In this document: positions 4,239 through 61,035 of the stretch, in pieces
Position numbering within the stretch: position 1 is the stretch's first letter
Layout of the letters: every line of letters starts with the position of its first letter
Source: Tubulanus polymorphus
Taxonomy: Eukaryota > Nemertea > Palaeonemertea > Tubulaniformes > Tubulanidae
Length of the DNA: 64,000 nt
Direction: 5' to 3'
Assembly: GCF_964204645.1 (NCBI RefSeq)
Contig: NC_134025.1
Coordinates: forward strand, 372,001 to 436,000
Notes under the pieces: generated by a model
The model's input: the letters and a program-made list of their open reading frames with translations, nothing else
Databases searched by the model: none
Told to the model about the DNA's origin: nothing
Translations under genes and position numbers: made by a program

Positions 4239-4240
4239 TA

Positions 4241-37937: not shown

Positions 37938-38990
37938 TTATCGAGTTCTTAGTTTCGACCTGCAGTGAATCCTATTGAAAATAACGGTCGTCTCAAAACG
38001 GAATTTTTTATTTGTTAAACAGTAAACGGAAAAATTGACACATGAATCAAACATGGACAATAATAGGGAGATTTTTCGTAGAATCATTTTACTGCCTTTA
38101 CCGAAAACTGGTAGAATATAGTTGCTGGGAAGTCGTTCCAGAACAGCAGGAAATTCACAAATAAAATAGAGAAAAACAACTGCTGTAACCGTCTTCAATA
38201 TTCCTGCATCTTTATCCTGAGCAGAAGCGCCACCTATTAGTGATATGCGTCGTTTTCTCGTCCAATTATACACGACAAATAGAATTGTGTTTGAAATTAA
38301 CAGAAATGTGATTGGTAGGTAATTTATGTTCATGGCGAATCTATAATCGTCACTTTTTTTCCAAAAATGTCTCCCATTAAAAAAACGTGTTACATCAGTA
38401 AAATTCAGCTTCCGCCAGTAAAGTGTGTAAGCGTACTGACCTGGTTTTAGACACGGCCATCTCGTTAAACCTGGTAATCTGTTGGGAACAATGGTATTAT
38501 AATAAAACATCACTGCAATCAATAGGATCACGAAGCAGAGTAAATTAATAGTTAAAGGTTTCCAGTAGCGCTTATATTTCAATGGGAAAATAATGACTAA
38601 AATTCTCTCTAAACTCACAACAACAACCAGCCAGTTTCTCATAAACTGTGACGGATACAGTCCCATATAGGCGATAACTATGAACCACCAACCAAACTTC
38701 CAGTCGTCATAACGAAAAACCAAGTCACCCAGATTACTGTAGATAAAATACGTTCTCAGCGGATACATGGTAAAAGACGATAAACTGAACGCAAGATCAG
38801 CGATTGCTAAAATACCGAGAGTGTGATAACAATTATTGCGTAGTCTCTTTATAACGATAATAGTGAGTAAATTCAGCAGAATACCACTTATAGTGACAGG
38901 ACCCATTCCTGCCATGTAGATATAAACACTGAACTGATAGTTCCATTTGATTTTCTGAGAACAATGATACTGTGAACTATTCACTGCCAT
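37938..38990 (-). CDS. Class A GPCR, FMRFamide-receptor-like (copy A)
   Basis: Seven-span rhodopsin-type receptor in one exon, 350 residues from the ATG at 38988-38990. An open frame runs 9 nt further upstream but lacks an ATG, and the paralogue aligns at this methionine. Landmarks: N-glycosylation site NSS near the N-terminus, LLNLLTIIVI (TM1), LAIADLAFSL with Asp2.50 (TM2), SLERILVIIFPLKY in place of DRY (TM3), CEFP in TM6 in place of CWxP, and VNFSVYCLTNKKFR in TM7 in place of NPxxY. The TM7 form is typical of FMRFamide/myosuppressin-type peptide receptors. The usual TM3 cysteine (3.25) is absent; ECL2 has one cysteine (RWPCLKPG) and the N-terminus one (QYHC). Ligand unknown; peptide is a guess. 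It lies tail-to-tail with the cadherin gene. Confidence 0.85.
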   Translation of the reverse strand: MAVNSSQYHCSQKIKWNYQFSVYIYMAGMGPVTISGILLNLLTIIVIKRLRNNCYHTLGILAIADLAFSLSSFTMYPLRTYFIYSNLGDLVFRYDDWKFGWWFIVIAYMGLYPSQFMRNWLVVVVSLERILVIIFPLKYKRYWKPLTINLLCFVILLIAVMFYYNTIVPNRLPGLTRWPCLKPGQYAYTLYWRKLNFTDVTRFFNGRHFWKKSDDYRFAMNINYLPITFLLISNTILFVVYNWTRKRRISLIGGASAQDKDAGILKTVTAVVFLYFICEFPAVLERLPSNYILPVFGKGSKMILRKISLLLSMFDSCVNFSVYCLTNKKFRFETTVIFNRIHCRSKLRTR

Positions 38991-38999
38991 GATCCGCAC

Positions 39000-39714
39000 A
39001 TCAATAGCGCAAAGGTAGCTTTAGCGTGAGTTCTGCGACTGCTGTTGGTGTTCGCTGTTCAAACATGATTTAATATCTTCCAGCACATCACAGGGATATA
39101 ACGCGTTTGCTTTCAACTCAACTTGGCAAAAAACATTCAAAATGATGAACATTTTATCAGGATAATCTTTTGTTGTCTAATAAATCAGGCACAACACGCG
39201 TGGAAATCGAATTAGATACAGCGCAAAATATAAATGCTTTTAAAATTGATTATTCAATTCCAAACAGTGTGGTTGAATTTATACCAGGACCGCGCAATCA
39301 TTTTCCGTGAGGTTCACAGTTTGCAAGGATTGACCTACATCAGTAATATTTGGTAATAATTCTTCAGATTCCTCTGTTAGATGATATAGCCTCACTCTCA
39401 CCCATTCTAAAGACGAATATTCATAGTGCGAGTGATCCGTCTTATTTTTTTTTGAAAGCTCATAACAAACCGATATAATCAGTGATTAGAGACCAAATTT
39501 CGAATAACGTTCGAAACTGAACGAAAATAGTCATCGGGGTTTGAAACTATTCTTCCTTTGGCATGTGAGTGATCGCTACGCTGCCCGTTTACCAATCCCA
39601 AATACAATCGCTGCACAACATAGTTCCATTATAAGTGGCTTAAAAACTATCGCTTAAAGCAGAATCGTCTTGTGTAAGGTTTTTATTGATAGATTTATAG
39701 AAATCATTCGTATT
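39000..39714. other. Spacer upstream of GPCR copy A; no gene seen
   Basis: Presumably holds the copy-A promoter on the minus strand. No coding sequence or clear core promoter motif could be fixed. It does not obviously match the region upstream of copy B, so the duplication breakpoint lies near the GPCR start. Confidence 0.4.
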
Positions 39715-41256
39715 TTAGACTGGACAATCGAATCGATCACAACTGACTGGACAATCCTTCAAATAGTAAACTTTCATGTGACCAGTAACATACAAAAAGG
39801 ATTAACGCCTAGTTAATCCTTTAAATGCGTTCATGGTTACTGGTCGATGTTTTAATCCGTTTTTATCTGGGGCGGTTTTCTTTCTCACTTGAGACTGTGT
39901 CATCACTTCTCTGTCCATGCACGCAATTTGTTCATTGTAAATAAATACAATGTGTTTTAAACATATATTTTAAAAATGTTGGAATAAATTGATGTTTATT
40001 TTTTTCAAAATTTTGATTGTTTGTTGCAGACGAGAGCCTGGTGGTGCGGCTGTAGTTAAATTCGGTTCATCTGGATCCAGTTCCACAGTTTTCCGTTGAT
40101 TCCAGGATTTACTGAAAATGAACTACAGTTCTACAGTCAAACTTAAACCGGGAACTGAGCAACTGGATCTTGAGATTAAACATACACGAACTCGGCTTTG
40201 ACCATGGATTGTTCAGAACCGATTTAATCGACTACTAAGTTTATTGAAAATTTTGGTCGTCTCTAAACGGAATTTCTTATTTGTTAAACAATAAACGGAA
40301 AAATTGACACAAGAATCAAACATGGACAATAATAGGGAGATTTTTCGTAGGACCATTTTATCAACTGTACCAAAAATTGTACGATAGATGAAATCGGGAA
40401 GTCGTTCCAAAATAGCAGGAAATTCACAAATAATATAGAGAACAACAACTGCTGAAACCGTCTTCAATATTCCTGCATCTTTATCCTGAGCAGAAGCGCC
40501 ACCTATTAGTGATTTGCGTCGTTTTCTCGTCCAATTATACACGACAAATAGAATTGTGTTTGAAATTAACAGAAATGTGATTGGTAGGTAATTAATGTTC
40601 GTGGTTATTCTATAATGACCACTTCCTTTCCAAAAATGACCCCCAGAACGATGGGTATGAATCACATCTGTATACTCCGGCCAGTAAATTGTGTAAGCGT
40701 ACTGACCTGGTTTTAGACACGGCCATCTCGTTAATCCCGGTAATCTGCGGGGAACAATGTTATTATAGTAAAAAAATACTGCAATCAATAGGATCACGAA
40801 ACTGAGTAAATTAATAGTTAAAGGTTTCCAGTAGCGTTTATATTTCAACGGGAAAACTATGACTAAAATTCTCTCTAAACTCACAACAACAACAAACCAG
40901 TTTCTGGAAAACTGTGACGAATACAGTCCCATATAGGCGATAATTATGAACCACCAGCCAAACATCCAGTCATCATAACGAAAAACTAAATCTCCCAGAT
41001 TACTGTAGATAAAATACGTTCTCAGCGGATACATGGTAAAAGACGATAAACTGAACGCAAGATCAGCGATTGCTAAAATACCGAGAGTGTGATAACAATT
41101 ATTGCGTAGTCTCTTTATAACGACAATAGTGAGTAAATTCAGCAGAATACCGCAAACAGTGACAGGACCAATTCCTATCATGTACATATAAACACTGAAC
41201 TGATAGTTCCATCTTATTTTCTCAGCGCAATGATACTGTGAACTATTCACTGTCAT
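39715..41256. repeat. Segmental duplication, copy B
   Basis: Second copy of the block at 37380-38990. It includes a pseudo-3' UTR of the cadherin with AATAAA at 39983-39988 and the fold-back element at 40075-40172. Cadherin coding exons are not included. Confidence 0.88.
40213..41256 (-). CDS. Class A GPCR, FMRFamide-receptor-like (copy B)
   Basis: Paralogue of the receptor at 37938-38990, single exon, 347 residues, ATG at 41254-41256. TM1-TM3 and TM5-TM7 are nearly identical to copy A, including YHTLGILAIADLAFS, SLERILVI, NWTRKRR, CEFP and VNFSVYCLTNKKFR. Differences concentrate in the second extracellular loop (HRSGGHFWKGSGHYR versus NGRHFWKKSDDYR and flanks), in ECL3 and at the C-terminus (SSRLNRF). 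It also lacks the TM3 cysteine but keeps the N-terminal and ECL2 cysteines. An intact frame and concentrated loop changes suggest both copies are functional and may differ in ligand preference; that is inference. Confidence 0.85.
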   Translation of the reverse strand: MTVNSSQYHCAEKIRWNYQFSVYMYMIGIGPVTVCGILLNLLTIVVIKRLRNNCYHTLGILAIADLAFSLSSFTMYPLRTYFIYSNLGDLVFRYDDWMFGWWFIIIAYMGLYSSQFSRNWFVVVVSLERILVIVFPLKYKRYWKPLTINLLSFVILLIAVFFYYNNIVPRRLPGLTRWPCLKPGQYAYTIYWPEYTDVIHTHRSGGHFWKGSGHYRITTNINYLPITFLLISNTILFVVYNWTRKRRKSLIGGASAQDKDAGILKTVSAVVVLYIICEFPAILERLPDFIYRTIFGTVDKMVLRKISLLLSMFDSCVNFSVYCLTNKKFRLETTKIFNKLSSRLNRF

Positions 41257-42387
41257 GCCTATTCACTGCCACTTAATTCGACCTGTAGTTGCCTTAGAAT
41301 TACGATAACGATGCATGTGCAAATAGATTTCATAAGTTATTAGAAGCGCTGGCGCTTTTGTGAAATCGATACCTATGGTAATGTATAATATATAAAATTG
41401 TAGCTATCATTACGTTGAGTATTTCTTCCAGTAAGAACCCGACACAACCATACGTGAAAACTAAATGAAGAATATATTTCTGCAAAATATATTTGAAATT
41501 GACGACTGAAAAGAGATTTACTTGATTTATATTTTCTGATTTATTAACAGCAGGTTTTATTCAATTCACAACGTACTAGCAGTGATTATTCAGTGTTACT
41601 TTGTTGAGTTTGAGTTTAACAACTGCAGGGACGTGGTCGTTTAACAGAAGTTACCAGTGACCTTCAATATTGATATTGTAGCGAATTTGTGACGAAAATA
41701 GCCAAGAAATCGCCTTTCACTAAACGTCCAGGGGCAAATTGCGCAGTCTAAAAAAGGTCTTAAATCTTGAGACTGGTCTTAAGTTGTAAGATTGGCTATA
41801 GAACTAAGTTGGTCTTAGACTGGTCTTAAGTCTAAGACTGATCTTAAGTCTAAGCCATGACTATGCAACCGGCCCCTGTGATTCTTGACTCTTTGTTCCA
41901 TACTAAAAAATCGCGCATTCTGCTCTATATATTATTACTGTGTTGCGTGTAGATTAAACTCGCTATTTAAAATCATTTGTGTTCAGTTTTCAACCCCCCC
42001 TCCCCCTCTGTACGCAAAATCGGCCATTATTTCATATACATTAAGCATTACAGTACGCAATTGCACTGACCTCTCCCCCCTCCACTAATGCGTACGTAAT
42101 AAATCAATGACCCCTTAACTAGAAAAATCGTCAGAGATATTTCTTTCCTTTAAAAAAAGTCGAAGAAAGAACTTTTGAATGAACATAAAATTTGAATGAC
42201 CCCCTGCCAGAACTAGAAAAATAGAACTGGGCACTTCTACAATCGTGAGTACTGCTCCAGCGGTAGTAGCCCTAGGCTCGATCCGCCCGTGTGTCCCGGG
42301 CGATCGGACATGCGCTGGGAACGGACCCCGGTATTAAAAAACGATAATAATTTCATTTCTGATAATTTTTCTCTTAATATTTTTCAG
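41257..42387. other. Intergenic; fold-back element at 41729-41877 and profilin 5' region
   Basis: Non-coding. Element 41729-41877 begins CAGGGGCAAATTGCGCAGTC and ends ACTATGCAACCGGCCCCTG, with internal TGGTCTTAAG repeats, and belongs to the family duplicated at 11950-12242. A GC-rich stretch at about 42255-42330 probably includes the profilin promoter or first non-coding exon. Confidence 0.6.
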
Positions 42388-42823: not shown

Positions 42824-45350
42824 ATGAGGTGGCGCTGCTCGATCTAACCCCCGCCGCCGATGCCTTCGAATATTATTATCGAAAACAATTGCGAACTTTT
42901 TATTTAGGAAATCGAAGAAGAAATGATGATGACGATGATAAGGAACACTAGGCGGCGCTTTTTGTAACGCGCGAAAAAAATGTCGTTGAATGACTTTTCA
43001 AAATTTTGAATTAATTATCGCGAAATTATTTCGTAGGAATTCACGATAGAAAGACTTTCCGAAAATAGTCTGAACCGTAGCTTACTGAAATTACAGTCTG
43101 GACTTCGGTTTTTACCCTACTTATAAAACAACTATTTCAACGTTTCAATTTCTGATTGTGTAATCGTCACAATGAAAATAAGTATAATTATAATAATTAA
43201 TAATAATTAAAGAATATAATCACAGAAAATAGAGGAAGAACTAGTATTAAATTTCAAAATTGTTCGAACGAAACGAGATTGATTCATTCGTAACAATTAC
43301 AACCGCTACTTTATAAAATGAAAATTCTTCATGACAATTTTAATAATTATTTGATTTTAGTTAAATTGACAGAAAAATTGTTCTATAAAATTTTGTCTTG
43401 GTTTTCGTTAAATTTTTTGTGCGGAGGAGATGTTTTTGGATTTTTCTCTAGACTTTGAAGAGCGCAGGGCCCAGTTTCACGGAAAAGTGTAAAGGCTAAA
43501 ACGGTTTAAGTTTGAAATGTTGTCCTCATTAGAAACATGAAGTAACCAATAATAGCAATTATATACACCGTAAATTTGAGTTGAACTTTTTAGTGAAACG
43601 ACTTGACCGGACGTTCAACAGGAATCGAAATTCTGTAACGAGCTGAGGAAAGCTTTAAACGGAAGATATCTGCAAATCTGTGCTGGAAGTAACATGATTT
43701 TTACAGCCTGGAGTCGTTAGAAGGCGTTGGATTTCATCTTTAAAAATTAAAGCAAGCAGGGGCTCGAATAGTTCAAGCCTACCGTTAAAAGTGTAAGCTA
43801 GGCCGCAAGAGTTTCACTTGTACTTCTATGAACCCACACACTTATCAAGTCTTGATTTGCATTACTAAGCGGTAGCCATCTAAAATGTCAAAACCTTGCA
43901 TACTGGTGCAATATATCTGAAGCGCAAGAGCCCGGAATCGCAGCTGTGATTTATTGTCCTCGGGAGTGTTAGGGTTTTGAGAGGGTCAGGGTTTTGGGAG
44001 AGTTAGGAAGAGTGTCAGGGTTGGAAAGGGTGTTAAGGTTTCAAGAGGGTCAGGGTTTTGATAGGGTTAGGGTTTCCAGAACTAGAAGGTCAGAGTTCCT
44101 AGAGAGAGGGTTAAAGTTTCAGCTATTATGTATATAGCACAGGGAGCATGCGGGATCGTTCGGGTTAGGATTACACTTCATTGGTAACAACTACCAGTGC
44201 CGGTACCAATAGAGGCTATAGTCAGTATGAAGAGGAACCGCTGCAGTAGCTTAAAAGAAAACACAATGACATTGATAAAGTACAAAAGTATAGCCGAATC
44301 GCATGAAAATAAGCCAGTAAACTTATATATAGTAGAGCCTACAAAACGATTGTTCGCAATTAATTTTTTGTTTGAAGTGTCATCAGTTTGCGTAAACTTG
44401 TTATTTCTGCAAAAAAAAATTGTTTTCTTTATTTCCTCGTAGTCTATAAGTCAAGGTCGTATGGATGCGAAAGTTTTTTTATTTTTGACAGTTGTAAGCC
44501 GGTGTAATTCGATACAGATTCAAGATGGTGTCTCTACAAGAGGGCGCCACAATACGATAGCTTCACAAACGTACGACATCAGGAGTGCTCCGTCCATGTT
44601 TCGGGGACCGCCGGTAACTCCAAGGTATCGTGGGTATCTTCGGTATTGTGGTTAGGTAGCCAGAGGCTCACAGGCCGTGAGACAGGACGTATCCTCGGTA
44701 TCGCAGGTGACCTGGAGGCTCACAACAGGCCGTGAGACTAACAGGTATCCTCGTATCATCCGGCGTTGGTATCGAGAGTCACCGCGCGCCCTGGCGGGCT
44801 GGGATCTCACAAGCCGGGAGACAGGTATCCTCGGTAACGTAGTATCGCAGGGGGTAACCTGGAGGCTCGCAGGTCGTGAGCAGGTGACGTATTAAGACCG
44901 AATTCGGCGAGGGCAATTTCAATAGATTATAACGAGATATCTAAAAAATTTATCCCAGACGAAAAAAAGACATTTTAAATCATTATCATCACCGAGCTTA
45001 GTAAAACGTAAAGACATATATTACTCAATAGGTTAACTAGTTAACAACAGTATTTAACTAATACGAAGAGGACACTAACTAGAGAAAACTGCAGTAGTGA
45101 TAGCAGGTATCTGCAGCCGAAAAATCAAGGAAATTATGTGGATCAATGACCTAGGCATCATCGAGAAAGAGTGAAAAAACTGCTGGTTAAAACGTCACGC
45201 TTTTGAATAGTGTTGTCATTTAGTTTTGATCAAACTTTTTCAAGTTTTTAAAAGTTTAAACCTTAAGAGTACCAACTCGGCATATACCTTACAATAAATA
45301 CGAATACTTATTGGTTGGCTGCTGAAGATACGAAGAAAGATTAGAAAGAA
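42824..45350. other. Profilin 3' UTR and intergenic; no further gene supported
   Basis: AT-rich non-coding sequence. It holds a fold-back remnant starting GGGCCCAGTTTCACGGAAAA (43467), a decayed repeat of AGGGTTTTGAGAGGGTCAG type (43965-44130), and GC-rich repeats of GGTATCCTCGGTATCGCAGG and GAGGCTCACAGGCCGTGAGA (44590-44890). The open frame at 44461-44655 starts with a hydrophobic stretch but runs into these repeats and has no splice or family support. Confidence 0.5.
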
Positions 45351-45356
45351 AGAAAG

Positions 45357-45575
45357 GGGCGTCACTCCGCACTTTTGGAATGCACCATGGATACAGTCCC
45401 GTAGAATGTCCAGTCCTTATTTTCTAGCCATCCTGAAGCCATCCCCGCATTACAATCTGAAACATTAAAAAGAGTAAAATACTTAGCCAAACTAGAGAGA
45501 TTGATTCCAGCCGGGTTCGACACTGCGACCGTTAGGAGTTCAGACGGGCACTCTAACCACTGGACCATAGACCCG
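45357..45575 (-). mobile_element. tRNA-derived SINE
   Basis: On the minus strand, a tRNA-like head has A-box TGGTCCAGTGG (45557-45567) followed by TTAGAGTGCCCGTCTGAACT. After a 33-bp gap comes B-box GTGTCGAACCC (45513-45523, 9 of 11 to consensus). A non-tRNA body of about 150 bp follows, ending GTGCGGAGTGACGCCCC and a TTTC-rich simple tail (45335-45356). The acceptor stem does not pair and there is no proper 3' end, so it is not a functional tRNA gene. An open frame on this strand (45362-45712) runs through the element and is not a gene. Confidence 0.7.
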
Positions 45576-45835
45576 TGGTATTCGTAGAGGATTTTAAGTT
45601 TGGTTTTCAGTACGCAACTTTGTATGTGTTTGCGATTTTCAGAATACATCGCCAACAGTTTTTCAAACCGATGAAAACATACAGCTAGTGGGGTTAACTG
45701 AGGACACATCATGATGATAATTAATTGTATTTAATTCGTCGATTTGGTCGAAATAATTTGGGTGGCGTTAATCGGGTTCGAATCCCATCAGAACATTTTG
45801 ATTTTCTACACTTGGCGGGAATATCAGCACTTTTC

Positions 45836-45917
45836 ATTGGTCAGGATAATGACGTCACGCTGTCGGTATAAAAACCCAGGTCAGCTGATCCCTCCTTCCA
45901 GTTCGGCCATTTTGCAG
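45836..45917 (+). promoter_or_regulatory. Core promoter and 18-nt first exon of the 46-53 kb gene
   Basis: Inverted CCAAT (ATTGG, 45836-45840), full CRE TGACGTCA (45850-45857), TATAAAAA (45867-45874) and an initiator CCAGTTC (45898-45904). The A at 45900 is 33 bp after the first T of TATA, the expected spacing. A GTAAGC donor at 45918 ends a short non-coding exon, about 45900-45917. Confidence 0.7.
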
Positions 45918-48900
45918 GTAAGCAAAGATTCATTTTTTCTCTCAGGTTTTAAAAGTAAATTTATATAACTATACCTAAAATATTTCTTGTACCATTTACG
46001 TTAGGTAATTTCCGAAAATAAGTTCCGAAAGGACAAATTATAAAATAGGTGCGAAATGTGTGTAAATTTGGTTATTTTACTTATTAAAAGCACTTTCCGT
46101 GTTACTCTTAAAATTTTTGAAGAATTCGCAATTTCCATGACATTGATTTTCAATATAGATAGCCATAATTAAGAAATTATATGCAATTTCATTGTTTAAA
46201 GCATCTGTAAAAGTTAAGTAAATTTTCTGCTGTTCATTTAATCTACGCGGTAAAGCGGCTCGTTGACATGCCTAGGAGTAATACACAGACAGCTCAGTCT
46301 ATTCAACCATGACTCGAATCTATAGAAACCTTTCATTCGAAGCGTCGTTCAACTTAATCCTGCTGGCTTCTATATCTATTATTAAGAAAATAATGATAAA
46401 ATAATTTAATGTTAATTATTATTATTACTTAATAGAAACTCGATTTAGCTATTTCTTAGAATCAATAATTTTCGATTTTCTTGATTTTTATAAGATTGTT
46501 TTTACATTGCAGTAGCAGCAGCAGCATCAACAGCAGCAGTTAATATGTCTACAAAATATGACCTTTTTTCGGGACTGTTAAAGCTGGTACGCGCCGAGGT
46601 GCTGACGCTCGACCCTGAAACCCTCGGCGCGTTTTTTGATTTGAGTAAGTACAAAGTCTACTTCATCAATCTCAATCTGGGGTATCTCAAATTCTCGATT
46701 ATTTTTGATGAACATCTCAAATTATTTGATTTCCAACATCCGAAATTATTTGATCTCAAATTCACAATCACAATTATTTTATCTAAATCTCCTTTTTATC
46801 TAAATATCCTAAATCTCAAATTGTCTAAATCTCAATTATTTCGAATATCATCAATTAAAAAATCTAATATCATCTAATTTCAATTTCTTTCAATTCTCTT
46901 TTTAATTTTAGAAAACTCAATTTATGTCACACTGATAAAATTAGGAAATCTATTTTGAACATATCATTTTATGTTTCTAGTCTCTTATTCTATTTCAAAT
47001 TACTCAATATTGTTCGAGTATAATTTTTTCATTTTGACGAATGATGCAATTCTGTCACCACCCTTAAACTCGATTGAATTTGGTAACAAATCTAATGGTG
47101 AATAAATTTTGAATTGAATTGAATAGTGAGTAGAGGCTCTGGTGGATGAGAATTAACTTGAGGAAGTAACCTCATTTCCTGGTTCCTGGTTTCGGTTTCA
47201 AATATCGTCGAAATTGTGATATATTCCTCATGTTATTCATGTGAATGCTGTATCCAGTCAATAGAGATAAGTTACAACATAAATAGTTAAAACTGTCTAG
47301 GCCTCCAGACCAATGCACTTCATAGAAAATCCGGATTTATGTTTGATAAATCAAGTAATTGGACTGCGCAGTTCAGTCCATTTACTATTTAGTCAGTAAG
47401 CAGACTTCAGTTTAGTCCATATTTTAATCAGTAACTGGACTGGCCGGGTTTAGTCCATAGTGTATTTAGTCAATAACTGGACTGCGATGTAGTCCATAGT
47501 TAAGTCAATAACTGGACTGCGGTTAGGTCCATATTTTAGTCAATAACTGGACTGCGGTTTAGTCCATAGTTTAGTTTAGTCAATAACTGGACTGCGATTT
47601 AGTTGATAGTTAAGTCAGGAACCGGATAGCTGTTTTGTCCGTATCCAGATACCCATCACATTATGGGACCAACTTTTTAGATACCGCTGAAAAGTAGAAC
47701 TAGTATTTACGGTACTTTCGTTTTTCTCTGCGACTCCAGGATCCGAAAACATGTGATTTTCTTTTTTATTAATCATTCGTCAATCGTCAGGAAATTCAGG
47801 ATCACTATTTTTGATTTATTGGTTAAACTTTGTTCTTCGTATCTCTAGGTAGTTGCTCACAACAGTTTGAGATCCCGAGATTATAGCGGGAAGGAGGTAT
47901 ACCTCGCAACTGCTATCATTTCGGCTAACTATTCTAAAGCCACACCCACTCAATGTTTATACTAGATCTAAACTACAGATATGATGTTTGATACGAATGT
48001 CGTTCACTAGCTCGGCTCATAGTCGGAACCTTCATCGTCTAATTGTTGTCGAATCCTAGATATTGCGGCCTTGCGGCAAATACAGTTTACCCACGATTTA
48101 TTTCTAACGGATTCATTATTACGGTCAATGGTTGGTGCCTCGTTAGGTACTGAGTCTTATACAGTGAGTTTACTCAGTATCGGGATCACAGTTTACTCAG
48201 TATCGGGACCACAGTTTACTCAGTATCGGTACCACAGTTTACTCAGTATCGGTACCACAGTTTAGTCAGCATCAGGACCACAGTTTAGTCAGTATCGGGA
48301 CCACAGTTTAGTCAGTATCGGGACCACAGTTTACTCAGTATCGGGACCACAGTTTAGTCAGTATCGGGACCACAGTTTAGTCAGTATCGGGACCACAGTT
48401 TACTCAGTATCGGGACCACAGTTTACTCAGTATCGGGATCACAGTTTACTCAGAATCGGGACCACAGTTTACTCAGAATCGGGACCGCAGTTTAGTCAGT
48501 ATCGGGACCACAGTTTAGTCAGTATCCGGACCACAGTTTAGTCAGTATCGGGACCACAGTTTACTCAGTATCGGAACCACAGTTTAGTCAGTATCGGGAC
48601 CACAGTTTACTCAGTATCGGGACCACAGTTTACTCAGTATCGGGACCACAGTTTACTCAGTATCGGGACCACAGTTTACTCAGTATCGGTACCACAGTTT
48701 AGTCAGTATCGGGACCACAGTTTAGTCAGTATCAGGACCACGGTTTAGTCAGTATCGGGACCACAGTTTAGTCAGTATCGGGACCACAGTTTACTCAGTA
48801 TCGGGACCACAGTTTAGTCAGTATCGGGACCACAGTTTAGTCGGTATCCGGACCACAGTTTAATCAGCATCGGAACTGTGATTCATTTCGTTCTGAGACC

Positions 48901-51900
48901 AGATTTTATCAAATTTCCTCTAGCTGTTCTTCAGATAGGCCTACCCTTTGACTTCATGTTTTTTTTTTCAGAATTCTTTTATTTTCTTAAAGCCATGAAA
49001 TGTATTTCCTCTACCGTTATCCAGGCCTGACATTTATCTAGGTCTATCCTGTTTTACACCTTACAAGTTCGACGGCAACATTTCATATTGTTTTTTCTGT
49101 AAACGGCTGCAGCTGTATTTATAGTGAATTATTCCACTGAATAATTCACTATAATTCACTATACTTGAAGGGTAAGTAGTGATTATTTGAAATACTTAAT
49201 GAATGCATGTGATATAATGGGCCTAAATTTTAAATATCGTTTATTGTTCGCTGTTTAATGATGTTTGATTTTTATAGATAGAAATCTTATTGTAATTTGT
49301 AGTGAATGGATTTGATTGTATGAAGTTGCAGCAGTGGACAGTGTCGTGTGAAATGGTTTTTACCCCTGATGGTTGTTTCTGAAGGTACAGTAGTGGACAG
49401 TGTCGAGTGAAATGGATCTTACCCCGACGGTTGTTTCTGAAAGTAAAAGTTGAAGATTTTTGATTGATGATGAAACACAGAAAATACAGTAGAAATTTGT
49501 ATGAAATCTTTTGTGTCCTTTTTCTGTTTGTCATGAAATAAAAATGAACTAGACTTACTTAGCAAAAACCATATAGGGAAATGTACAGTACTCGAAGGAT
49601 ATATTGCAATTTTTTCGAACTAAAATTCGGTGAAAATTCATTTTACAAAAATGTATCAAATTTTATTGGATTTTTTGCCCTTAATGATACTGTAGACTTC
49701 ACTTAAACTGGTAGACGGTCTATATCTAGTATAATCTGTTCAATTCGATGAAATAAAGATGAAATGTTGTTTTTCAATACATATGTTTTGCCTTTTCTGG
49801 TATTGCTCTGTTCGATGATAATAATGATAATAATAGTATATGTCTAATATAGCCCTAAAACCAGCAGCTGCTCAGAGCGCTTCACATTTTCTGTTTTATT
49901 GCCCCAGCCATTTAATAGTCTCCTGGGGTGAGGTAACATTCGAACAGCTGCTAGGTGCTCGGGGGTCATCTATCGGCCCAGGTACCCATTTACTCCTGGG
50001 TGGAGAGACGAATGAGGATAAGTGTCTTGCCGGGGACACAATGGTAATGTACGGGGTTCAAATTCACGACCTGGTTTCCCAGAATGCTTCCCGTATCCCG
50101 TAAATGTTCACTTCATTTCCGTTTATTCTCTGCCTGAACCGGTAAACTGTAACGGCTGTTCGCCTATATTATAGAATACATGTATGTACTATCAACCTTC
50201 TATCTCTGTTAGCAAAAATACATAAAAACATAAGAACATCTTTATGTATTTTTACTGTTAGTGATTAGGCCTTATGTTCTATGTGTAATTAGAGAAAAAC
50301 CCTCAGAGTGCCCATCATTGTTATCTAGAAAGTAGGAAAATCAGTAGAAACTTTGGAGTTCCGTAGAGTGAAAACTGTAAGAGATAGAGCGTTATGGTAA
50401 TTGAAAAGTTTGTAGGGTATATGATCCTTGGAAAATTTTGGTGGTAATTTTTCTTACTGAAAGTGACGTTCTATGCAAATGAGCTAATTTGCATGAATTA
50501 TAATCGGTGACCTATTTATTTGATAAGCCCCTAAATTTTAGGTATCAAAATGAACAAATCAGGTATCTAGCCTCAGCTAACAGCTGACAATGGAATATTC
50601 TATGTCTACGGTCACAAATATTTATTGTACGGGTAATTATAATTAGAAAATGACCTAATAATTAAATCAGGTGACCTCCGGATAAGTACCCGCTACTTTC
50701 AAACGCAAAAAACTCAAATATTTTGAATAGCATCACCACAAAAACGCGGCATAAAAACAAACTAACGGGCACTGCCATTTAATCAAGCCATCTAGCGGCA
50801 GATTTCTCTGCTGAATTCTATGCGAAAAACTAAAAATAAAACTGCTATAAGAAATGTCGACGAAAGTTGACAGGGCACAGTACGACCTGAAATAATCTGT
50901 AGACGAAAGTCGACTGGGCTCTGAAAGAGTTATAGAAGAAATTTGGGGATTCACTACATGGTCAGATTGTATAAAATACAAAGAACTTGATAATTTTGAC
51001 CGCTATTAGGCTCAATAAATCTTTTCATCAATTGATTTTTGCAATTCTTAAAAGCCGGTAACTGCCTAATAAGGTAGAAAATAGAAGGTGCCAAACTGTA
51101 GCAGTTTAGGCGGAGGCTACTGTATGATGAATATCAGCTGAAATGGCTGTGCATAGAATTTTGTTGATCTGAATAAATGAATGGCTGCTGTACGATGAAT
51201 TATACATTCTAGGTGAGTTATATAATGAATATGTGGAGTACCGATAGGCCTATTGCTGACAATGAATATTCTATTGGGAAAATTGAATTACAGCCATTTA
51301 TGTTGATAGTGAAATATTGTTCTTCAAAATGAATGTTTTTTATCTGTAGTGAGTGTTGTTTCTGAAGGTGCAGTAGTGGGCAGTGTTGTGTGAAATGGCT
51401 TTTACTGGTTTTAGATTCAGCGAAGTGAAATTATTTGTGTCGTTTTTCTGTTTTAATTCATGCTGTAAATAGTTTAAACAATAAAATATTTAAAAAAAAC
51501 AATCATATTTTTATCTTCATTTTTGAGAAAATTCAGTAGAAAATATACAAATTCTCCCACTTACCGTGGATGGAGTGTGGCACTGTATGCAATGAAAAAG
51601 TTTTCTACAAAATAATTGAATACATTTCTGAAGTGTGGACACATTTTTCACTCATCCATTTGAAAAGTAATTACTGAATAAAAGGAATTATCGATTAATT
51701 TTTTGTTGATACAGCGCGACATTTGTTTTAAATTAGATCTTTTATCGTTTCAAAGTTTCCATTTCAATTGGTTGATAAATGAAAAGTTATCATGCGTGTT
51801 ATTCCAAAGAGGTTCCCAGATTTTGAAACCAGGGTCATGGGTAACAATTCCATTGATTATTCATTATAATGTATAGTTTTTGTCACCTGGAACCTGGTAC

Positions 51901-53345
51901 GTCATCACCCCAGAAAAAAAATCAAGTGTATTTTTGATTCATGATTATCTACCAAAATTGATTGTCAAGGTAATGGTAGGATGTAATTTATTACAATCAG
52001 TATTTCCATTAATGAATTAACAAAAGTGTACCCGTCCACGTACAGGGTTGGTTCTGAAATATATCAAGTATATAAGACATGAAAATACCATTATAAAATG
52101 TGTATTGGAAGATTCAATTATCAGCCTCACTGATGATATACTGTCAACTCATCGTTATTATGTAATGGATGATGCAAATCATGAGAGCAGTTAAAAGTGT
52201 AGTTACAACAGCGTTAGTCTACAACCAGTGACATGATCACTTCTCACAAAATAAGCTTACGATCCCTTCCAAACGTTCAAATGACCCTTCTCACCCCATC
52301 ACGTCACATTCACCTATTGGATAACTGCATTATTTTATAGGTTACTATATACAAATATGATAATTATATTCGAACATGTCATTATGTCATTTATGTGTAA
52401 TATGCATGATCCTTAATGTTTTTTTTTTTCATTTCAGATATAGACATCATTGAAAACATCCAACATGACCAGTCTGAAGCAGCCCGCAGAGCACTTCCAG
52501 CATTACGAGATACTTATACAAGGTGTGTATCTCTCTGCGGGCCTAAGGAACCAACTCTTCCTGAAATTGTTCCACCTTTTGAGTTGGTTCCTTTGCAGGA
52601 GGTGGACCCTGCTTCTCCCGTAAATGTGGAGCAGGAGGTCGCCCCTGCAGTGGTGACCCCGACAGAGGCGCCACAGCTTCAGACGCCTTCACTGCGTCGG
52701 TCGCCCCGTCAAAAGACTAAAGATATAGATTACACAATAGGTTCGGGGCGTCCGAAAACAAAAAAAAAAGGCAAACGTGCAGCTCGTCCTCCTCCACCTC
52801 CGCAACCAAATTTTGAGGAGGAGAGCAGTGATGAGGAGGAATTCGCCACTCCTGGAGCGACACCACCAGGGCCCGCAACTCCCCCGCCACCACCACCACC
52901 ACCACCACGTACCAGACCACCACCACGTACCAGACCACCACCACGTACCAGACCACCAACATCTACGTCAACACCAGCATCTACATCAACACCAGCATCT
53001 ACGTCAACACCAGCATCTACGTCAACACCAGCATCTACGTCAACACCAGCATCTACGTCAACACCAGCATCTGCCGGACCACCACCATCAACCGGACCAC
53101 CACCATCAACATCGACATTGACTGGAAAAAATAGAAATAAGAAGAGAAAATATAATGATAACGAAAATGCTTCTACATCAGGAGCTCCAGTGGGGGCACC
53201 ACCTTCCCCCGCTGTCGAGCTGGTGGCGCGCGGCCCTGGGTGGTCAAGAAACATCAACTACCACGATCCAATCAAAATGCTCCGCGATGTTGAAGGGGCC
53301 TTTAAAGGAAAATATGAGTTAGTTAAACGTAGGCGAACAAATTAA
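45900..53345 (+). CDS. Unrecognised 335-residue protein: helical N-terminus (possible death fold), proline-rich, basic C-terminus
   Basis: Exons: non-coding about 45900-45917; 46513-46644 (ATG 46545); 52438-53345. Coding length 1008 nt; the phase closes across a 5.8-kb intron. N-terminus: LFSGLLKLVRAEVLTLDPET, then LGAFFDLNIDIIENIQHDQS, then EAARRALPALRDTYTRC. The pattern LGxxxxLxxxIIExI...A...LxxL resembles the second half of a death-fold domain, weakly. Then come acidic/Pro linkers, LRRSPRQKTK, a basic KTKKKGKRAARPPPPP stretch, EESSDEEEF, polyproline, PPPRTR x3, STPAST x6, a KNRNKKRKY nuclear-localisation-like cluster, and a non-repetitive tail ending KGKYELVKRRRTN. AATAAA at 53542-53547. 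Likely nuclear. The function is unknown; extra exons in the large intron cannot be excluded. Alternative: a gene of a mobile element, but no terminal repeats are seen. Confidence 0.65.
47340..47640. repeat. 37-bp tandem repeat, TCAATAACTGGACTGCGGTT-type
   Basis: About seven imperfect copies of AGTCAATAACTGGACTGCGG followed by TTTAGTCCATAGTT. The TTTAGTC core is shared with the 23-bp array 500 bp downstream. Confidence 0.8.
48160..48880. repeat. 23-bp minisatellite, GGACCACAGTTTAGTCAGTA-type
   Basis: Roughly thirty copies of ACCACAGTTTAGTCAGTATCGGG with TTTACTC/TTTAGTC and GGTACC/GGGATC variants, inside the first large intron of the unrecognised gene. Confidence 0.95.
49840..50105 (+). repeat. 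Dispersed repeat fragment (SINE-like)
   Basis: Carries GGTACCCATTTACTCCTGGG, GGAGAGACGAATGAGGATAA, GTGTCTTGCCGGGGACACAA and GGGGTTCAAATTCACGACC. The last resembles a pol III B-box. From general experience this consensus recurs widely in invertebrate genomes as a short interspersed repeat. No A-box is evident here, so it is probably a truncated copy. Confidence 0.5.
52895..53110 (+). repeat. Coding 18-bp repeats, PPPRTR and STPAST
   Basis: Three copies of CCACCACCACGTACCAGA (PPPRTR) are followed by six copies of TCTACGTCAACACCAGCA (STPAST), then two PPPSTG units, in the last exon of the unrecognised gene. Units are almost identical at the DNA level, indicating recent expansion. Confidence 0.92.
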
Positions 53346-53840
53346 AATAACATCAGCCCCTTCACTCGCCATCACCCGGGCAACAACATCAGCCCATGCA
53401 CGTCTGCAGATCGGCACTTCTTGAAACTCAGTTTTCCCTTCCACCTTCGTCGATCTGCAGGTTGCGCAGTGTTAAATATCTGTCAACACTCCTTGAACCA
53501 GTGGGCGTGCAGTCCTCCTTGCTTTTATAAAAAAATATAAAAATAAAAAACCAGACATCATTGCATATAATCATTGCTTTTATGGAGGTTTTACGGTTTC
53601 TCCAAAAAAATTTAAAAAATTGAAAAATGATAAAAAAAATTCATTATCATTTCATCCCTTTATTTACTTTTTGGACAAAAAGAAATATTTGTCCATCATC
53701 CCATTCATTTACTTTTTAAATCATTTATTTATTTTTTTTGACTGTACGACCCACTGTGTTCCACTCCATTTTAACCCCCATTTTTGCATTAACTCTTACC
53801 TTATTAACTAAGGTTCATTGTGCTTCTCACAATGCTGAAG
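53346..53840. other. 3' UTR of the unrecognised gene and T-rich spacer
   Basis: Contains AGATCGGC and TCGATCTGCAGG halves of a small inverted repeat (about 53400-53462) and the AATAAA at 53542. Beyond about 53580 the sequence is T-rich and non-coding. Confidence 0.5.
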
Positions 53841-54350
53841 CATTAACCCTTCTTGGCGCTACTTTGCAGCAGTAGCCATCTATACCACCTAATTGTGGCA
53901 GTAGCCTTCTTAGGATTCATCAATTCTAATACCATGGTCGACCTTTTCAAATATCTTTCGGGATATAAACCATCCTTGCAACTACTTTGCAGCAATAACC
54001 ATCCATACCACCTGATTGTGGCAGTAGCCTTCTTATGAGTCATCAATTCTAATACCATGGTCGACCTTTTCAAATATCTTTCGGGATATAAACCATCCTT
54101 GCAACTACTTTGCAGCAATAACCATCCATACCACCTGATTGTGGCAGTAGCCTTCTTAGGAGTCATCAATTCTAATACCATGGTCGACCTTTTCAAATAT
54201 CTTTCGGGATATAAACCATCCTTGCAACTACTTTGCAGCAATAACCATCCATACCACCTGATTGTGGCAGTAGCCTTCTTAGGAGTCATCTATTCTAATT
54301 CTATGGTCAGCCGTTGTAAATCTCTTTCGAGATATGCAGGGAATCAATTC
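53840..54350. repeat. 123-bp satellite-like tandem repeat, four copies
   Basis: ACTTTGCAGCA recurs at 53861, 53984, 54107 and 54230, exactly 123 bp apart. Copies are nearly identical apart from the edges. The period is 41 codons and the minus strand stays open for 148 codons, giving a repetitive peptide (KKATATIRWYGWLLLQSSCK per unit); the plus strand is also partly open. No splice or start support, so treated as repeat, not gene. Confidence 0.92.
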
Positions 54351-54429
54351 CTACAATAACTCCTATGGAGTTTGAAAAAAAGTGGATTTTTCAAATCAAA
54401 AGGAACTGTTACGTGATTCTTTATCGAAC

Positions 54430-54550
54430 TTTATCGGAACATGGAGAAGGAATAGCTATGTTTCACACATAATGCGTTTCCTTATGAAGCTGAAAATAAC
54501 GTGGAGAAGGAACAGCTATGTTTCACATAATGCGATTCCTTAGGAAACTA
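54430..54550. repeat. Two-copy tandem repeat, about 62-66 bp
   Basis: GGAGAAGGAATAGCTATGTT plus TCACACATAATGCGTTTCCT is repeated as GGAGAAGGAACAGCTATGTT plus TCACATAATGCGATTCCT. Confidence 0.75.
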
Positions 54551-54559
54551 CATTGAAAC

Positions 54560-57170
54560 AGATTGTTCAATGTTCCATGTTGCTCCCTCCCCCAAATACT
54601 ATGACGTCTATACGTCAAGTGTAAAACCATTATATCATTATTAACATACTTGTTTTTCTAATTACAGAATTAAAGATTAATTTAATATGACATGAAAACT
54701 TGAATGATTGAAATGTTAATATCTAATGCTCAACAACGGAGGGAAATCCTTCACATGTGATCGGAGGGATTTAAAATGTTTACTCATAAGGAAAAGGGAT
54801 ATATATTTATATACGTGAGATTGCCCGGATTAAAAATTGCGCAAGAAAGGAAACCACAGCAAAGACTACGGTAATCAATTTCATTACATTTCTAAGGTGT
54901 GAAACCATCACCATCTGGATCGGTGATCAATGCATGAATGCATGAGTTCATAATTGAACATAGGATATAATAGAAAAATGCTAAGATCTGCAAAAATGCA
55001 ATGATTGAGAATCGCTGATAAAGAAAGTATTAAAAAAAAGATCTTGGATTGGAAAATTCGTTGTTATCACATCAGTGATCAGGTTTTATTGATTGATATT
55101 GATCTCTACTGATTCTAACGATCACCAGGATCAAAATTCTTGTTAATAATTAGTCTTAATTAATCTCTTGCTGAAATCAATAAGGCATATGAGAGAGGAG
55201 GTCTGATATATGAGAGAGGAGGTTCAGGGAGGTATGAGAGAGGAGGTTCAGGGAGGTATGAGAGAGGAGGTTCAGGGAATATGAGAGAGGAGGTTCAGGG
55301 AATATGAGAGAGGAGGTTCAGGGAATATGAGAGAGGAGTTTATGGAGATATGATAGAGGAGTTTATGGAGATATGATAGAGGAGTTTAGAGAGATATGAT
55401 AGAGGAGATGGTCTAAAAGGAAAATTGTTAAGTTCATAACAATCGAGCAACTCAGTAATAGACACCGCTCTGATGAAGTAACTCCTGGTCCTTTATTGGG
55501 GTCTAAATTGGAATTTCGTTTAGCAATTGAAATATGGTTGATAGAGCGTGGAATTGTTTCCATGTAGGCGAGCAATGCATAAAACACACGTCAGATTAAG
55601 GCTGTTGAGAGTGAATTATCAATAGATTTAAGAAATCGAGGATGAAGTTGTTTTCAAGAGGTCAATCATTCATATGGTTGTTAATCAGATCAGGTTCTCA
55701 GGTGCTTCCTTCGTCCCCAAAAACGGCATAAGTCGTATCAAAGTATGTGATATAACCTACTAATTGATTACATGAAAAGAGGCTATTTGTAGTTTCTCAG
55801 CCATTTTGCAATTATTGTTGTGAAGAGGTCACAAAATCCAAACTAAAACCAGCATCATTAATAGATTTCTACTGACTGAGACCCGGTCATACTGCTCATG
55901 TCGAACAGTTTGTTGTATTTTTGTGGTTCCAGTTTCTCACGTTCTAAGATAGAACAAAGTTCCTAAATTTTGAGTCCTTCAGTGCTGAAATTCAAATTTA
56001 CTACAAATTTCCTAATTCCAATTTCAATTGAAATTCCAATTTACTACGAGTTTCCTAATCTTAACTTTCCAAAAGTTTGAATTTTTCCTAATATATCTCT
56101 TTTCATGATTTCATTCCAGTTCTCAAAATTAATTACGGTTTTTGAATATCTGCGAAATATCATTAATTATTTTCCTAGTTTCATTTTTACTATTGCCCAA
56201 AATCATATTTTATGTGAATTATTATCGCTATTATTGGATTCTTTCAATGATGTTTTGGTTCGATATTATGATTGATCAAGGTGATCCATCTAAATCTATT
56301 TCATTGCTATAAATTATGAATTATTCATATCTGCAAACATTTCATTGATACTTCTAAACTAGTAATTCTGAAAACACTCTAAAAACTATTTTACCCATAT
56401 TTTAAAGACAATTGTAGAAAGTATTTTGAATTATCACAATTTTAAAGTATCTATAATATGTAAAACTATTTTATCTGAATTTAAAAAGATTGAAGAGACT
56501 ATTTTATATCTGAATTTTAAAACACCTGTGATATCTAAAAACTATGTTATCTGAATTTTAATCTATTAAAGAAACTATTTTATATCTGAATTTTAAAATA
56601 CCTATGATATCTAAAAACTATTTTATCTGAATTTTATACTATTTCATTTGTATGTATTTTATCTCAAAGTATCTTTTTAAACTATTTTATTTGTGTATAT
56701 TTAAAAAACTATTTTTTTTGTTTATATTTGAAAGCTATTTTATTTTTTATATTTAAAAACTATTTTATATGTATATATTCCTTTTAGAACAATGATTTAT
56801 TTATATTTCAATACTTACTAAAAGATCAATTTGATGAAATATTTTATATTTGACTATCACTGTGTATATTCGAACCCCAGTGATTTCATGAGAATGGAAT
56901 AACTGAAGGTCCAGGTTTTATCACCGAATACTCTTTGACACAATTACGTGGTCCACAACACAGATATAAATAGTGGTTATATAAAAGGCCCATGTTGTAT
57001 ATAGTGCACGCATAAAGAGCTTTTACTCGTAGTTGATATAGGCTTAGTAAATATGAAATGTGATTGAGAACGTTTTCTCATACTTTCTTTACCTTTTTTT
57101 CTTGTAGTTTTTTTCAATTTTTATTAAAGTAATTCAATGAATTATCTACTCATTTTCAGTTGGTGTTTCA
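54560..57170. other. Gene-poor AT-rich region; GAGAGAGGAGG repeat at 55185-55400
   Basis: The array at 55185-55400 consists of ATGAGAGAGGAGGTTCAGGG units of about 20-23 bp. From 56390 to 56790, AT-rich sequence repeats AAAACTATTTTATCTGAATT-like motifs. The minus-strand open frame at 55363-55587 has no recognisable family. Nothing else was seen. Confidence 0.6.
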
Positions 57171-57176
57171 CTATCA

Positions 57177-57345
57177 TGGAATGCGATGAATAAAAAACAG
57201 TCTGAGTGTATTTTTCACATGATATTTTCAGCGTCCCGTTGTATGAAATTTTGAATTTTGAATTTTATGTTATCTCAAGAAAATATATGACTGAAAACAT
57301 CATATGAAAAATACACTCAGATTGTTTTTCATTTATCTCGTTCCA
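57177..57345. repeat. Inverted repeat with 55-bp arms
   Basis: The left arm starts TGGAATGCGATGAATAAAAA and contains CTGAGTGTATTTTTCA. The right arm is its reverse complement with a few changes (CTGAAAACATCATATGAAAA to CTCGTTCCA). The loop is about 59 bp of AT-rich sequence. MITE-like. Confidence 0.85.
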
Positions 57346-57357
57346 TACAATACAGGA

Positions 57358-57430
57358 CTCAGTTCCACAGATTGATTTGGATGCAAGAATTTAAATACAT
57401 ATTTGTTGCATAACTGTGGAACTGGGTCTT
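57358..57430. repeat. Short fold-back element
   Basis: ACTCAGTTCCACAGATTGAT to GCATAACTGTGGAACTGGGT, a compact (about 73 bp) copy of the CAGTTCCACAG family. Confidence 0.7.
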
Positions 57431-57794
57431 GTTAAATTGTGAGCATGATGTTTATGATTAATCACTAGTGCGTTTTAAACTAGATTTCAAGTTAACCTAA
57501 GTTTAGATTAGTTGGTTTTTGTTTAGTTATTTTAGTAATTTTTGCTGTTATTGAATTTAATTCATTCCAGTTGATTTAAGTCTAATTTAGTTAAAGTTTT
57601 AGTTCATTTAGGTCAAGTTGATTAAGTTTTAACTATAGCTGTTAACTTAAATAAAGAATAAACCTCTGATAAACTGAGGGTCAATTTATCTTATAAGTTA
57701 CACTCAGGTTTTAATCAATAATCGCGTTTAAGATCTCCTTTTTTATGCAGTTCAGAGATTATCTCTGAATAAAATAGTAACATCTTAGAATGTG

Positions 57795-58085
57795 ATGAAC
57801 TGAGGGTTAATTCAGCATTGTTGAAATTACTCTCAGGATCATCATTAAAACAATGAATGAACTGAGGGTAAATTCATCATTGTTGAAATTACTCTCAGGA
57901 TCATCATTAAAACAATGAATGAAATGAGGATAAATTCATCATTGTTGAAATTACTCTCAGGATCATCATTAAAACAATGAATGAACTGAGGGTAAATTCA
58001 TCATTGTTGAAATTTCTCTCAGGATCATCAGTAAAACAATGGATGAACTGAGGGTAAATTCATCATTGATGAAATTACTCTCAGT
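57795..58085. repeat. 62-bp tandem repeat
   Basis: Four to five copies of AATGAATGAACTGAGGGTAA, ATTCATCATTGTTGAAATTA and CTCTCAGGATCATCATTAAAA. Divergent single units flank it at about 57670-57720. Confidence 0.9.
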
Positions 58086-58089
58086 TCAT

Positions 58090-59035
58090 TGAGGATATTT
58101 TAGCATTAACACCAGTTTTAATTACCCCCCTGTTTTCTTGTTATTGAAAGTAACATCACTAGTTATAGAGTAGATGATTAGGTTTTTTATTGTTTGATGA
58201 ACTTGCAGTTAATTAGATTGATTAATAATACAATACTCTCAGGTCATTGAAACATAATCTTTAATGTTATCTTAATTTTAGGGATCTAGGGTTTTACGCC
58301 GAAATAGATTATAAATGAATGAAACAATGGAATTTTTAATCAGTATTTTTTCGTTACTGTTAGAGAACTTTTATTTATTTAGTTTTTAGGCTTTTCACTT
58401 TTTGCTTTCTCTAGATTCTAGTTTTTTTCTAAAATATTGTTGAAATTTTGTTGTGTTTTTTTAATCGATTTTAAGCTTAACTTGAGTCCCAGCAGGCTAG
58501 TGTATTCACTTTTCATCCGTTATTCGACTGGCAGAATATCAAGATGGCTGACTGGTAGCCATTCTTGTTCGCTAAAATTGGCAGTTTTACACATATTTGA
58601 AGTTTTTAAGGGAGGTTTCAAAGATTTCTCCAACATTTGATGTTTGATATCGATATGTATCCCCCATCATAATTAGAAATATTGGGTTGCTTTAACTTAC
58701 AGTCATGATGTTTGATAATTGTTAGCATTTTCATAGAACCAGTCTTACCCCATTTTCTATTCTTCCCATCAGGGGTATTTAATTCATACAATTTTTCCAT
58801 GAGTTTTGGTATTTATGCATATAACCACAATCAATTGCATATTTGTAGCATTAGTTTTTGTTATGTTTACCGGGGGCATTGAATATTGAAATTGTCAGAT
58901 TGTCAAGCATTTCACCGAGTGGGCATGGTGTCCCTGCACCTCTAGTTTATATCTTATTTCACTGCTTTCAAGGTTCTCGTACACATTTCATATTTACATG
59001 CAGCTTTCATTCAATATACATCAATGCCATCCTCG
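58090..59035. other. No gene seen
   Basis: AT-rich, with a CAAGATGGCTGACTGG motif near 58540 (YY1-like) and short open frames lacking splice or family support. Confidence 0.45.
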
Positions 59036-59038
59036 CTT

Positions 59039-59366
59039 GCCAGGTTTTAATTGTCGTCTGCCGAAGCTCATGCCAAGACAAACCCTGGTCGCAAACTCTT
59101 CATTGGTCTATTAACGTTGTTCAAGATTACTTGTGTAGACAGGTTGCCACTGAGAGGCCACCAGTCTATATATCTAGCCAATCAGATGCGTTGTTTTTCG
59201 CCGGCAGATTTGCTACACATCTGATTGACTAGATGTAAAGACTAGTGGCCGCTTAGCAGCAACCTGTCGACTCGAGATATCTCGAACAATGTAAGAGACC
59301 AATGAAGGGTTTGTGACCAGGGTTTGTGTAAGCGTGAAATTCGGTGGGCGACAATAAAACCCTGGT
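59039..59366. mobile_element. Long fold-back element of about 328 bp (arms about 150 bp)
   Basis: Left arm landmarks CCAGGTTTTAATTGTCG, ACAAACCCTGGTCGCAAAC, CTTCATTGGTCT, GACAGGTTGC and CCAATCAGATG reappear in reverse complement on the right arm (CATCTGATTGACTAGATG, GCAACCTGTCGA, AGACCAATGAAGGG, GACCAGGGTTTGTG, CGACAATAAAACCCTGG). The arms are diverged, separated by about 28 bp. No transposase. A non-autonomous DNA-transposon-like or fold-back element. Confidence 0.8.
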
Positions 59367-59369
59367 GAT

Positions 59370-60475
59370 TGAGGATGTATCGATGTACATATCAACACAC
59401 AAAAAGCCAAACATAATAGGCGGCATTATTATTGGGAGGTGCACCTGGCCTAATATACCGCGCGGTAAAAATCACTCTTTCTGTGGTTGTGTAGTACCAG
59501 TAATTGATGATCATCGAGTGAGTGATTGGCCTGGCCCAGTTATTCCATTCTGAAATCACTTGGGTTCCGATTATGATTGACAAATAATTCAAAATATTTC
59601 ATCAAATTGATCGACACATTTTATCCGTACTTTTACATTATTATATTTATATTGTAAATATGTAAATAGCTTTATATTTATATTTATATTATATTTCTTT
59701 TTAGATTTTTTTATTGATTTTGATTTCTACTTATAAATATTTTTAGATATCTTTTTAACTTAAGATTTTGATGAAAAATATAAATAATTTTATCTAAACA
59801 TTTCAAATATAATCCTAAAACTTTTTAATTTTCTAAACTTCATAATATCTATACATCAAATCTATTTTAGTGAAAATTTTGATATAGATTTAAACGATAA
59901 TTAATATTTTTAATTCTATTGAATAATTTTAATATTCAAAACAACAGAATGAATGCATTCAATCTTAGTTTGATACTGATATCACTTGTTGCATCTATTG
60001 TTTTAACGAGATTTTAACCTATAAGTTTGGAGCATTGATATTATTTCATTGCATTAGTCCCGCCTCCTCATTTATGGCTGATGGTTGATTTCAGATTTTC
60101 AGCTTCTAATAACATTAATATTAATTCAATGCTACGTTATGTTTTGTTGTTTTATTTCTTACGAACGTTTTCAAAGATGACTTTTTGTCGAATTGATATT
60201 TGGTAGTGCAGAGGTTGAGATAATTATACAATTTTATAGAATTGTCTAAAATACTGTACCAAGTAACATATAAGTAGTATTGCTAGTTTACCTCTATTTT
60301 CAAGTTGTCCTGTGGTACGACGTTAAACTGCCTCATTTTAACAATACGTTTTATCCATACATTTTATCAGTGATTTTTATCTATTTGTCCTGTGGTACGA
60401 CGTTAAACTGCCTCTTTTTAACCGTTTTTACCCATATGTTTTATTGTTTTTATCATATGTTTTATTGTTTTTATC
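59370..60475. other. No gene seen; AT-rich
   Basis: AT-rich, including a near-duplicate of TTGTCCTGTGGTACGACGTTAA at about 60304 and 60386 (82-bp spacing). No exons found. Confidence 0.5.
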
Positions 60476-60479
60476 ACCC

Positions 60480-60812
60480 CTTCTTTTTCTACCTTTCTCT
60501 ATCCTTTCCCTCTCTGTCTCTATCCTTTCCCTCTCTGTCTCTATCCTTTCCCTCTCTGTCTCTATCCTTTCCCTCCCTCTCTCTATCCTCCCTCTCTCTC
60601 TCTAACCCACTAACTCTCTTCCTCTTTCTCTAACCCACTAACTCTCTCCCTCTTTCTTTAACCCACTAACTCTCTCTTCCTCTTTCTTTAACCCACTAAC
60701 TCTCTCCTCTCTCTCCTTTCTTCCTCTCACCCCTCTCCTTCATCCTTCCTCCTCTCTCCCTCCTCTCTCTCTCCTCACTCTCCTCTCTCTCTCTTTCGCT
60801 CTCTTTCTCTCT
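60480..60812. repeat. CT-rich simple sequence (TCTCTCTATCC)n
   Basis: CTATCCTTTCCCTCTCTGTC units pass into AACCCACTAACTCTCTC repeats and then plain CT. Almost pure pyrimidine on plus. Confidence 0.92.
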
Positions 60813-61035
60813 ATCTTGTAAATATTGTAAATTTGTATATAGTAGTTTTTATTTCTCTTGTAAATATTGTAAATTTGTAAATAGTAGTTTTTATTTCTCT
60901 TGTAAATATTGTAAATTTGTAAATAGTAGTTTTTATTTCTTTTGTAAATATTGTAAATTTGTAAATAGTCGTTTTTATTTCTCTTTTTAATTTTCTTGTA
61001 GATATTGTAAATTTGTAGATAGTAGTTTGTTTTTT
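60813..61035. repeat. 42-bp tandem repeat
   Basis: Five copies of TCTTGTAAATATTGTAAATT and TGTAAATAGTAGTTTTTATT directly adjoining the CT tract; the last copy has G substitutions. Confidence 0.9.

Follow-up and report, generated by a model that had tools for sequence, protein, structure and literature searches.

A conserved three-exon gene of a multicopy family on a dispersed ~30-kb repeated unit

The window analyzed here, a 64,000-nt stretch of a 267.8-Mb genome comprising 77 contigs (G000:C1:372001-436000), carries a three-exon gene on its plus strand. Its sequence matches, to the base, the gene model put forward in an earlier note on this DNA, with the TATA box, leader exon, splice junction and poly(A) signal claimed there all in place. 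The core promoter (45814-45899) contains motifs that we take to be an E2F-like site, GGCGGGAA (45814-45821), an inverted CCAAT box (ATTGG, 45836-45840), a CRE, TGACGTCA (45850-45857), and a TATA box (45867-45874). It is followed by an 18-nt noncoding leader exon, AGTTCGGCCATTTTGCAG (45900-45917), which includes a YY1-like CCATTTT motif and is closed by a GT donor at 45918. Exon 2 (46513-46644) comprises 5′ UTR and the first coding exon, with the ATG at 46545 opening 33 codons plus one base; ~90 nt of 5′ UTR that are present in other copies of the gene are absent from this one. Intron 2, of 5,793 bp (46645-52437), runs from the GT after 46644 to the AG before 52438 and harbors a 23-bp minisatellite of 31 repeats (48167-48873). 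The coding part of exon 3 (52438-53345) begins with a phase-1 junction at 52438 and ends with a stop codon at 53343-53345, and the 3′ UTR (53346-53560) comprises a highly conserved stretch, a predicted hairpin with arms at ~53402-53415 and ~53449-53460, and the AATAAA poly(A) signal at ~53542-53547. By eye, a minus-strand stretch upstream of the promoter (45500-45580) is tRNA-like (SINE-like); ARAGORN predicts no tRNA gene there.

The spliced product is a protein of 335 residues with a pI of 9.6 and 18% proline. Exon 3 contributes the second half of an N-terminal domain, an SPR/AT-hook-like GRPK basic segment, an acidic patch, a Pro/Thr/Ser region built of in-frame 18-bp repeats (52898-53107, plus strand) and a conserved C terminus (ELVARGPGW...MLRDVEGAFKG). 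The number of 18-bp repeats is variable between copies and differs even between ones that are otherwise ~97% identical, in keeping with the fresh expansions suspected earlier. A G-S/T-GRP core, conserved in the family members read through that segment, gives no Pfam hit; compared with the RGRPRK-type core of an AT-hook, the match is partial, GSGRPK having no leading Arg and matching no family model. What the product shares with AT-hook chromatin proteins is its basic, proline-rich character and the conserved GRP core, whereas the incomplete AT-hook and the conserved N- and C-terminal segments of its own set it apart. For the full protein, Pfam returned nothing above the cutoff, the C terminus gave no credible match in our searches, and literature searches for a described family yielded general reviews only. 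A phage or viral origin was considered and rejected, as the phage and IMG/VR collections held no relatives. The earlier impression of an unrecognized family thus agrees with the outcome of the Pfam, PDB, phage and IMG/VR searches, and, judged by its sequence, the product probably represents an undescribed, lineage-specific family of basic, AT-hook-like nuclear proteins.

The N terminus had also been proposed as a possible death fold, which would make the protein a signaling adaptor (with a death, CARD or DED domain) carrying a disordered tail. The domain does look helical by eye, but three divergent N-terminal domains, searched as single sequences, gave no Pfam death-fold hit at E≤10. Likewise, a profile of eight N-terminal sequences, run against all PDB sequences, found no death fold and returned only designed helical proteins and chance matches. 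With no sequence-search match, the idea is therefore one of appearance. The death fold is a six-helix Greek-key bundle of ~80-90 residues, compared to which the domain, at ~65 residues, is short. We consider a death-fold adaptor very improbable.

Searching the genome with the protein, the promoter and exons 2 and 3 as queries revealed what the earlier note had missed, namely, that the gene exists in about fifty or more copies and that this one lies inside a ~30-kb repeated unit; a single-copy novel gene is ruled out by these copies. All copy numbers given here are lower bounds. A first tier of gene copies, with DNA identities of roughly 75-100%, resides on a ~22- to 40-kb unit at at least 35 locations, one of which is a seven-unit tandem array on C6 with a spacing of ~30 kb. 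The second tier comprises ~15 further loci with a 55-70% identical diverged paralogue, which come without the unit's right end and whose last exon is mostly open (~255 residues). The diverged paralogues L074, L075 and L076 (the latter two being different loci, each read in part) have the same promoter, leader exon, acceptor and 3′ UTR, their first coding exon is in the same phase, and the GRP motif is present; in L075, the exon 2 acceptor TTGCAG/TAGCA recurs. The N-terminal domain of the diverged paralogue, assembled from the first coding exon of one locus and exon 3 of another, is 30% identical.

The copies bear out the view that this is a real gene: donor, acceptor, phase-1 junction, promoter and 3′ UTR are kept across many of them, and dN/dS is below 1. 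Specifically, both coding exons were covered in 11 further copies, all of which share the donor GTAAGTAC, the acceptor and the phase-1 junction and have introns of 3.2 to 6.7 kb; splice sites and junction phase are also kept in most of the remaining loci, which were read over one exon. Exon 3 is open in nearly all first-tier loci read, the clear exception being L021/L060 (one locus read twice); all exon 3 lengths are multiples of three, and all coding indels are in frame. Stops or frame damage are seen in a few copies (C3:4855643 and C2:3454675). Pooled over 20 distinct copies, dN/dS fell from 0.53 where exon 3 begins to 0.47 in its middle and 0.29 at the C terminus, and the first coding exon, previously described as looking constrained, indeed gave values of ~0.1-0.3. 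Values below 1 were also obtained in single comparisons, with Fisher p values down to 1.6e-7. The protein is under purifying selection, with a dN/dS of about 0.3-0.5.

Within a single pair of copies, divergence can vary greatly from one segment to the next. Between the window copy and L026, for example, dS is 0.66 at the start of exon 3 and 0.07 in the middle, which points to sequence exchange between copies. The copies look mosaic, as they would under such exchange, and the pattern points to concerted evolution of the family.

Conservation extends to the noncoding parts of the gene. The core promoter is conserved in 33 sequences, including that of the diverged paralogue L075; in their alignment, GGCGGGAA, ATTGG, TGACGTCA, TATA and TTCCAGTTCGGCCATTTT are near-invariant, as is the leader exon. 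Judging by these motifs, we presume that the promoter is of an S-phase type. At the other end of the gene, the 3′ UTR at 53346-53520 is more conserved between paralogues than synonymous sites are, its blocks being 85-89% identical to the diverged paralogue, compared with a synonymous divergence (dS) of ~0.7. This stretch is predicted to form a long hairpin, and in the predicted fold of L074 the stem is retained with a G-U substitution. It may be a regulatory RNA element; an Rfam search of 44400-64000 of the window matched no known structured RNA.

The repeated unit that contains the gene occupies 44490-64000 (plus strand) of the window and extends beyond it to about C1:446,060, a total length of ~29.6 kb. 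Homology between copies stops sharply at ~44,490 on the left and extends past the window end on the right. The left edge is common to five copies with unrelated flanks (one of them without the first ~10 nt), and its sequence, GGTTATAAGCCGGTGTAA, is the terminal inverted repeat (TIR) of a dispersed family; the left terminus (44490-44886, plus strand) consists of the TIR tip AGTTGTAAGCCGGTGTAA (family form GGTTATAAGCCGG) followed by a minisatellite. The tip is kept in only 6 to 7 gene-bearing copies; the other left ends are ragged and lie 0.36 to 1.5 kb upstream of the promoter. Toward the right, most of the copies read include a 123-bp tandem array of 3.9 repeats (53859-54335) in their unit, and about 28 copies, as counted from paired hits, have a right-end module (C1:443-446 kb) at a distance of 22 to 40 kb downstream of the promoter. 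The window copy, whose right TIR tip is missing, has its right end marked by an inverted minisatellite (C1:445.8-446.06 kb). Within the right end, we noticed a region that is repeated and micro-exon-like and that contains a signal-peptide-like ORF, MVTTFISCIFVVASGLLLVVVSGVQNQ (L065:6900-8100; C1:442.9-444.1 kb); this region is found in most copies, often broken by stops.

One member of the TIR family is a 36.7-kb element at C2:17,544,206-17,580,883, which has the same long TIR at both ends, a perfect 8-bp target duplication, CAAAACCC, and a fragment of a MULE-type DDE transposase (PF10551, E=6.5e-4) inside. This fragment is also found at two sites without the TIR; therefore, it may be nested in the 36.7-kb element, and for the same reason we do not accept a MULE as the proven transposase of the unit. 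If the fragment does belong to it, the 36.7-kb element is very large for a MULE. Among the PF10551 matches listed, none lies within gene-bearing units, and no transposase was found among the unit ORFs tested. One gene-bearing copy of 31.2 kb (C2:456,597-487,801) has TIRs at both ends and no target duplication. A candidate for a second clean TIR pair, at C8:3,194,351-3,230,177, was set aside, since it shows no target site duplication (TSD) and the flank to its left has a duplicate on C8. The earlier note had said that many genomic copies, if found, would point to a mobile element instead; the copies are there, whereas the mobile nature is plausible but, given the ragged left ends, the mechanism of dispersal is unproven. 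As far as can be read from the ends, transposition is a plausible cause of part of the unit's spread.

Mutator-like DNA transposons (MULEs, Pack-MULEs) have long TIRs and 8- to 11-bp TSDs and often gain extra ORFs; extra genes, or genes of the host, tend to travel with them (PMC6446971). What resembles them here is the 36.7-kb TIR relative, with its long TIRs, 8-bp target duplication and MULE transposase fragment. In contrast, arthropod MULEs are reported to span 1.4 to 10 kb (PMC13359780), compared with ~30 to 37 kb here, and our gene-bearing units have no detected transposase and mostly no clean ends. The giant eukaryotic transposons Terminons and Burro (PMC6431247) resemble the unit in their length of 30 to 40 kb and in containing tandem repeats as well as accessory genes, and Terminons share its location at chromosome ends; however, they are retroelements with a reverse transcriptase, of which there is none among the unit ORFs tested.

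Could the unit be a self-propagating giant mobile element, with the protein as its essential DNA-binding factor in transposition or maintenance rather than host cargo? The TIR edge, the purifying selection in dispersed copies and the nuclear, DNA-binding look of the protein would fit, as would our finding no other long, well-conserved gene in the unit. The protein has no catalytic domain, however, and the second-tier genes, lacking the unit's right end, have no TIR tips nearby. We regard such an element as quite unlikely.

The copies cluster toward chromosome ends. With the C6 array counted once, 33 of the 35 first-tier loci fall in the outer 15% of a chromosome (median, 1.03 Mb), as do 12 of the 15 second-tier loci; for the first tier, the distal location is a strong pattern, although its p value overstates the evidence because duplications are not independent events. 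This bias is what a host multigene family alone might produce, if an ordinary nuclear protein gene with ~30 kb of flank had been multiplied through tandem duplication and through ectopic recombination of the subtelomeric kind, with the TIR as a passenger transposon end beside an ancestral copy. The seven-unit array on C6, the ragged left ends, the diverged paralogues outside the unit and the selection on the protein all agree with such an origin, and subtelomeric multigene families likewise have many near-identical copies of mosaic sequence in distal arms. Yet the flanks immediately beyond the left edge are mostly unrelated, whereas segmental duplications usually share longer ones, several copies have a transposon-type edge, and one has TIRs at both ends. 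We see a purely host-driven amplification as possible but lean against it.

The explanation we prefer, giving it about an even chance of being right, is a functional three-exon gene of a lineage-specific, multicopy nuclear-protein family that spread with a transposon-bounded repeat. Its product would be a basic, mostly disordered nuclear protein associated with DNA or chromatin, in which the small helical N-terminal domain would mediate protein contact, the GRPK AT-hook-like basic segment would touch DNA and the conserved C-terminal segment might have a further contact role. The promoter, with its E2F-like, CCAAT, CRE and TATA elements, would confer expression in dividing (perhaps germline) cells from many copies. 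The unit may have spread in part as the cargo of a giant TIR DNA transposon, probably MULE-like, and in part through ectopic duplications within distal chromosome arms; the gene would be its cargo or an accessory gene. A bolder version, which we think unlikely, would place the unit in a new class of animal DNA transposon, giant (~30 kb) and dependent on a dedicated noncatalytic nuclear protein that it carries under an S-phase-type promoter; such an element would now be colonizing distal arms, with free-standing domesticated paralogues elsewhere in the genome. An undescribed protein family at about fifty or more, mostly intact loci, the majority of them carried by a ~30-kb repeat, in a single animal genome makes it possible to ask concretely whether large repeats disperse together with a selected gene cargo. 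It also raises the question of what role a nuclear protein encoded in so many copies, behind a replication-type promoter, might have at, or for, chromosome arms.

Elsewhere in the window, an ALG3 mannosyltransferase is encoded by a single open exon (4211-5455, plus strand; Pfam E 2.3e-140). A 1185-residue open frame at 19448-23002 (plus strand) is full of in-frame tandem repeats and has no Pfam match, and downstream of it lies a 51-bp purine-rich minisatellite of 34 copies (23729-25484); the interval 24001-25000 shows a GC skew of 1.000, with zero C on the plus strand. Two similar single-exon ORFs on the minus strand (37941-39020 and 40216-41262) look like rhodopsin-type receptors by eye. Cadherin-like coding segments, also recognized by eye at 31.6-36.9 kb and in L066, flank the repeated unit on both sides, as if it sat in or beside a cadherin-type gene cluster.
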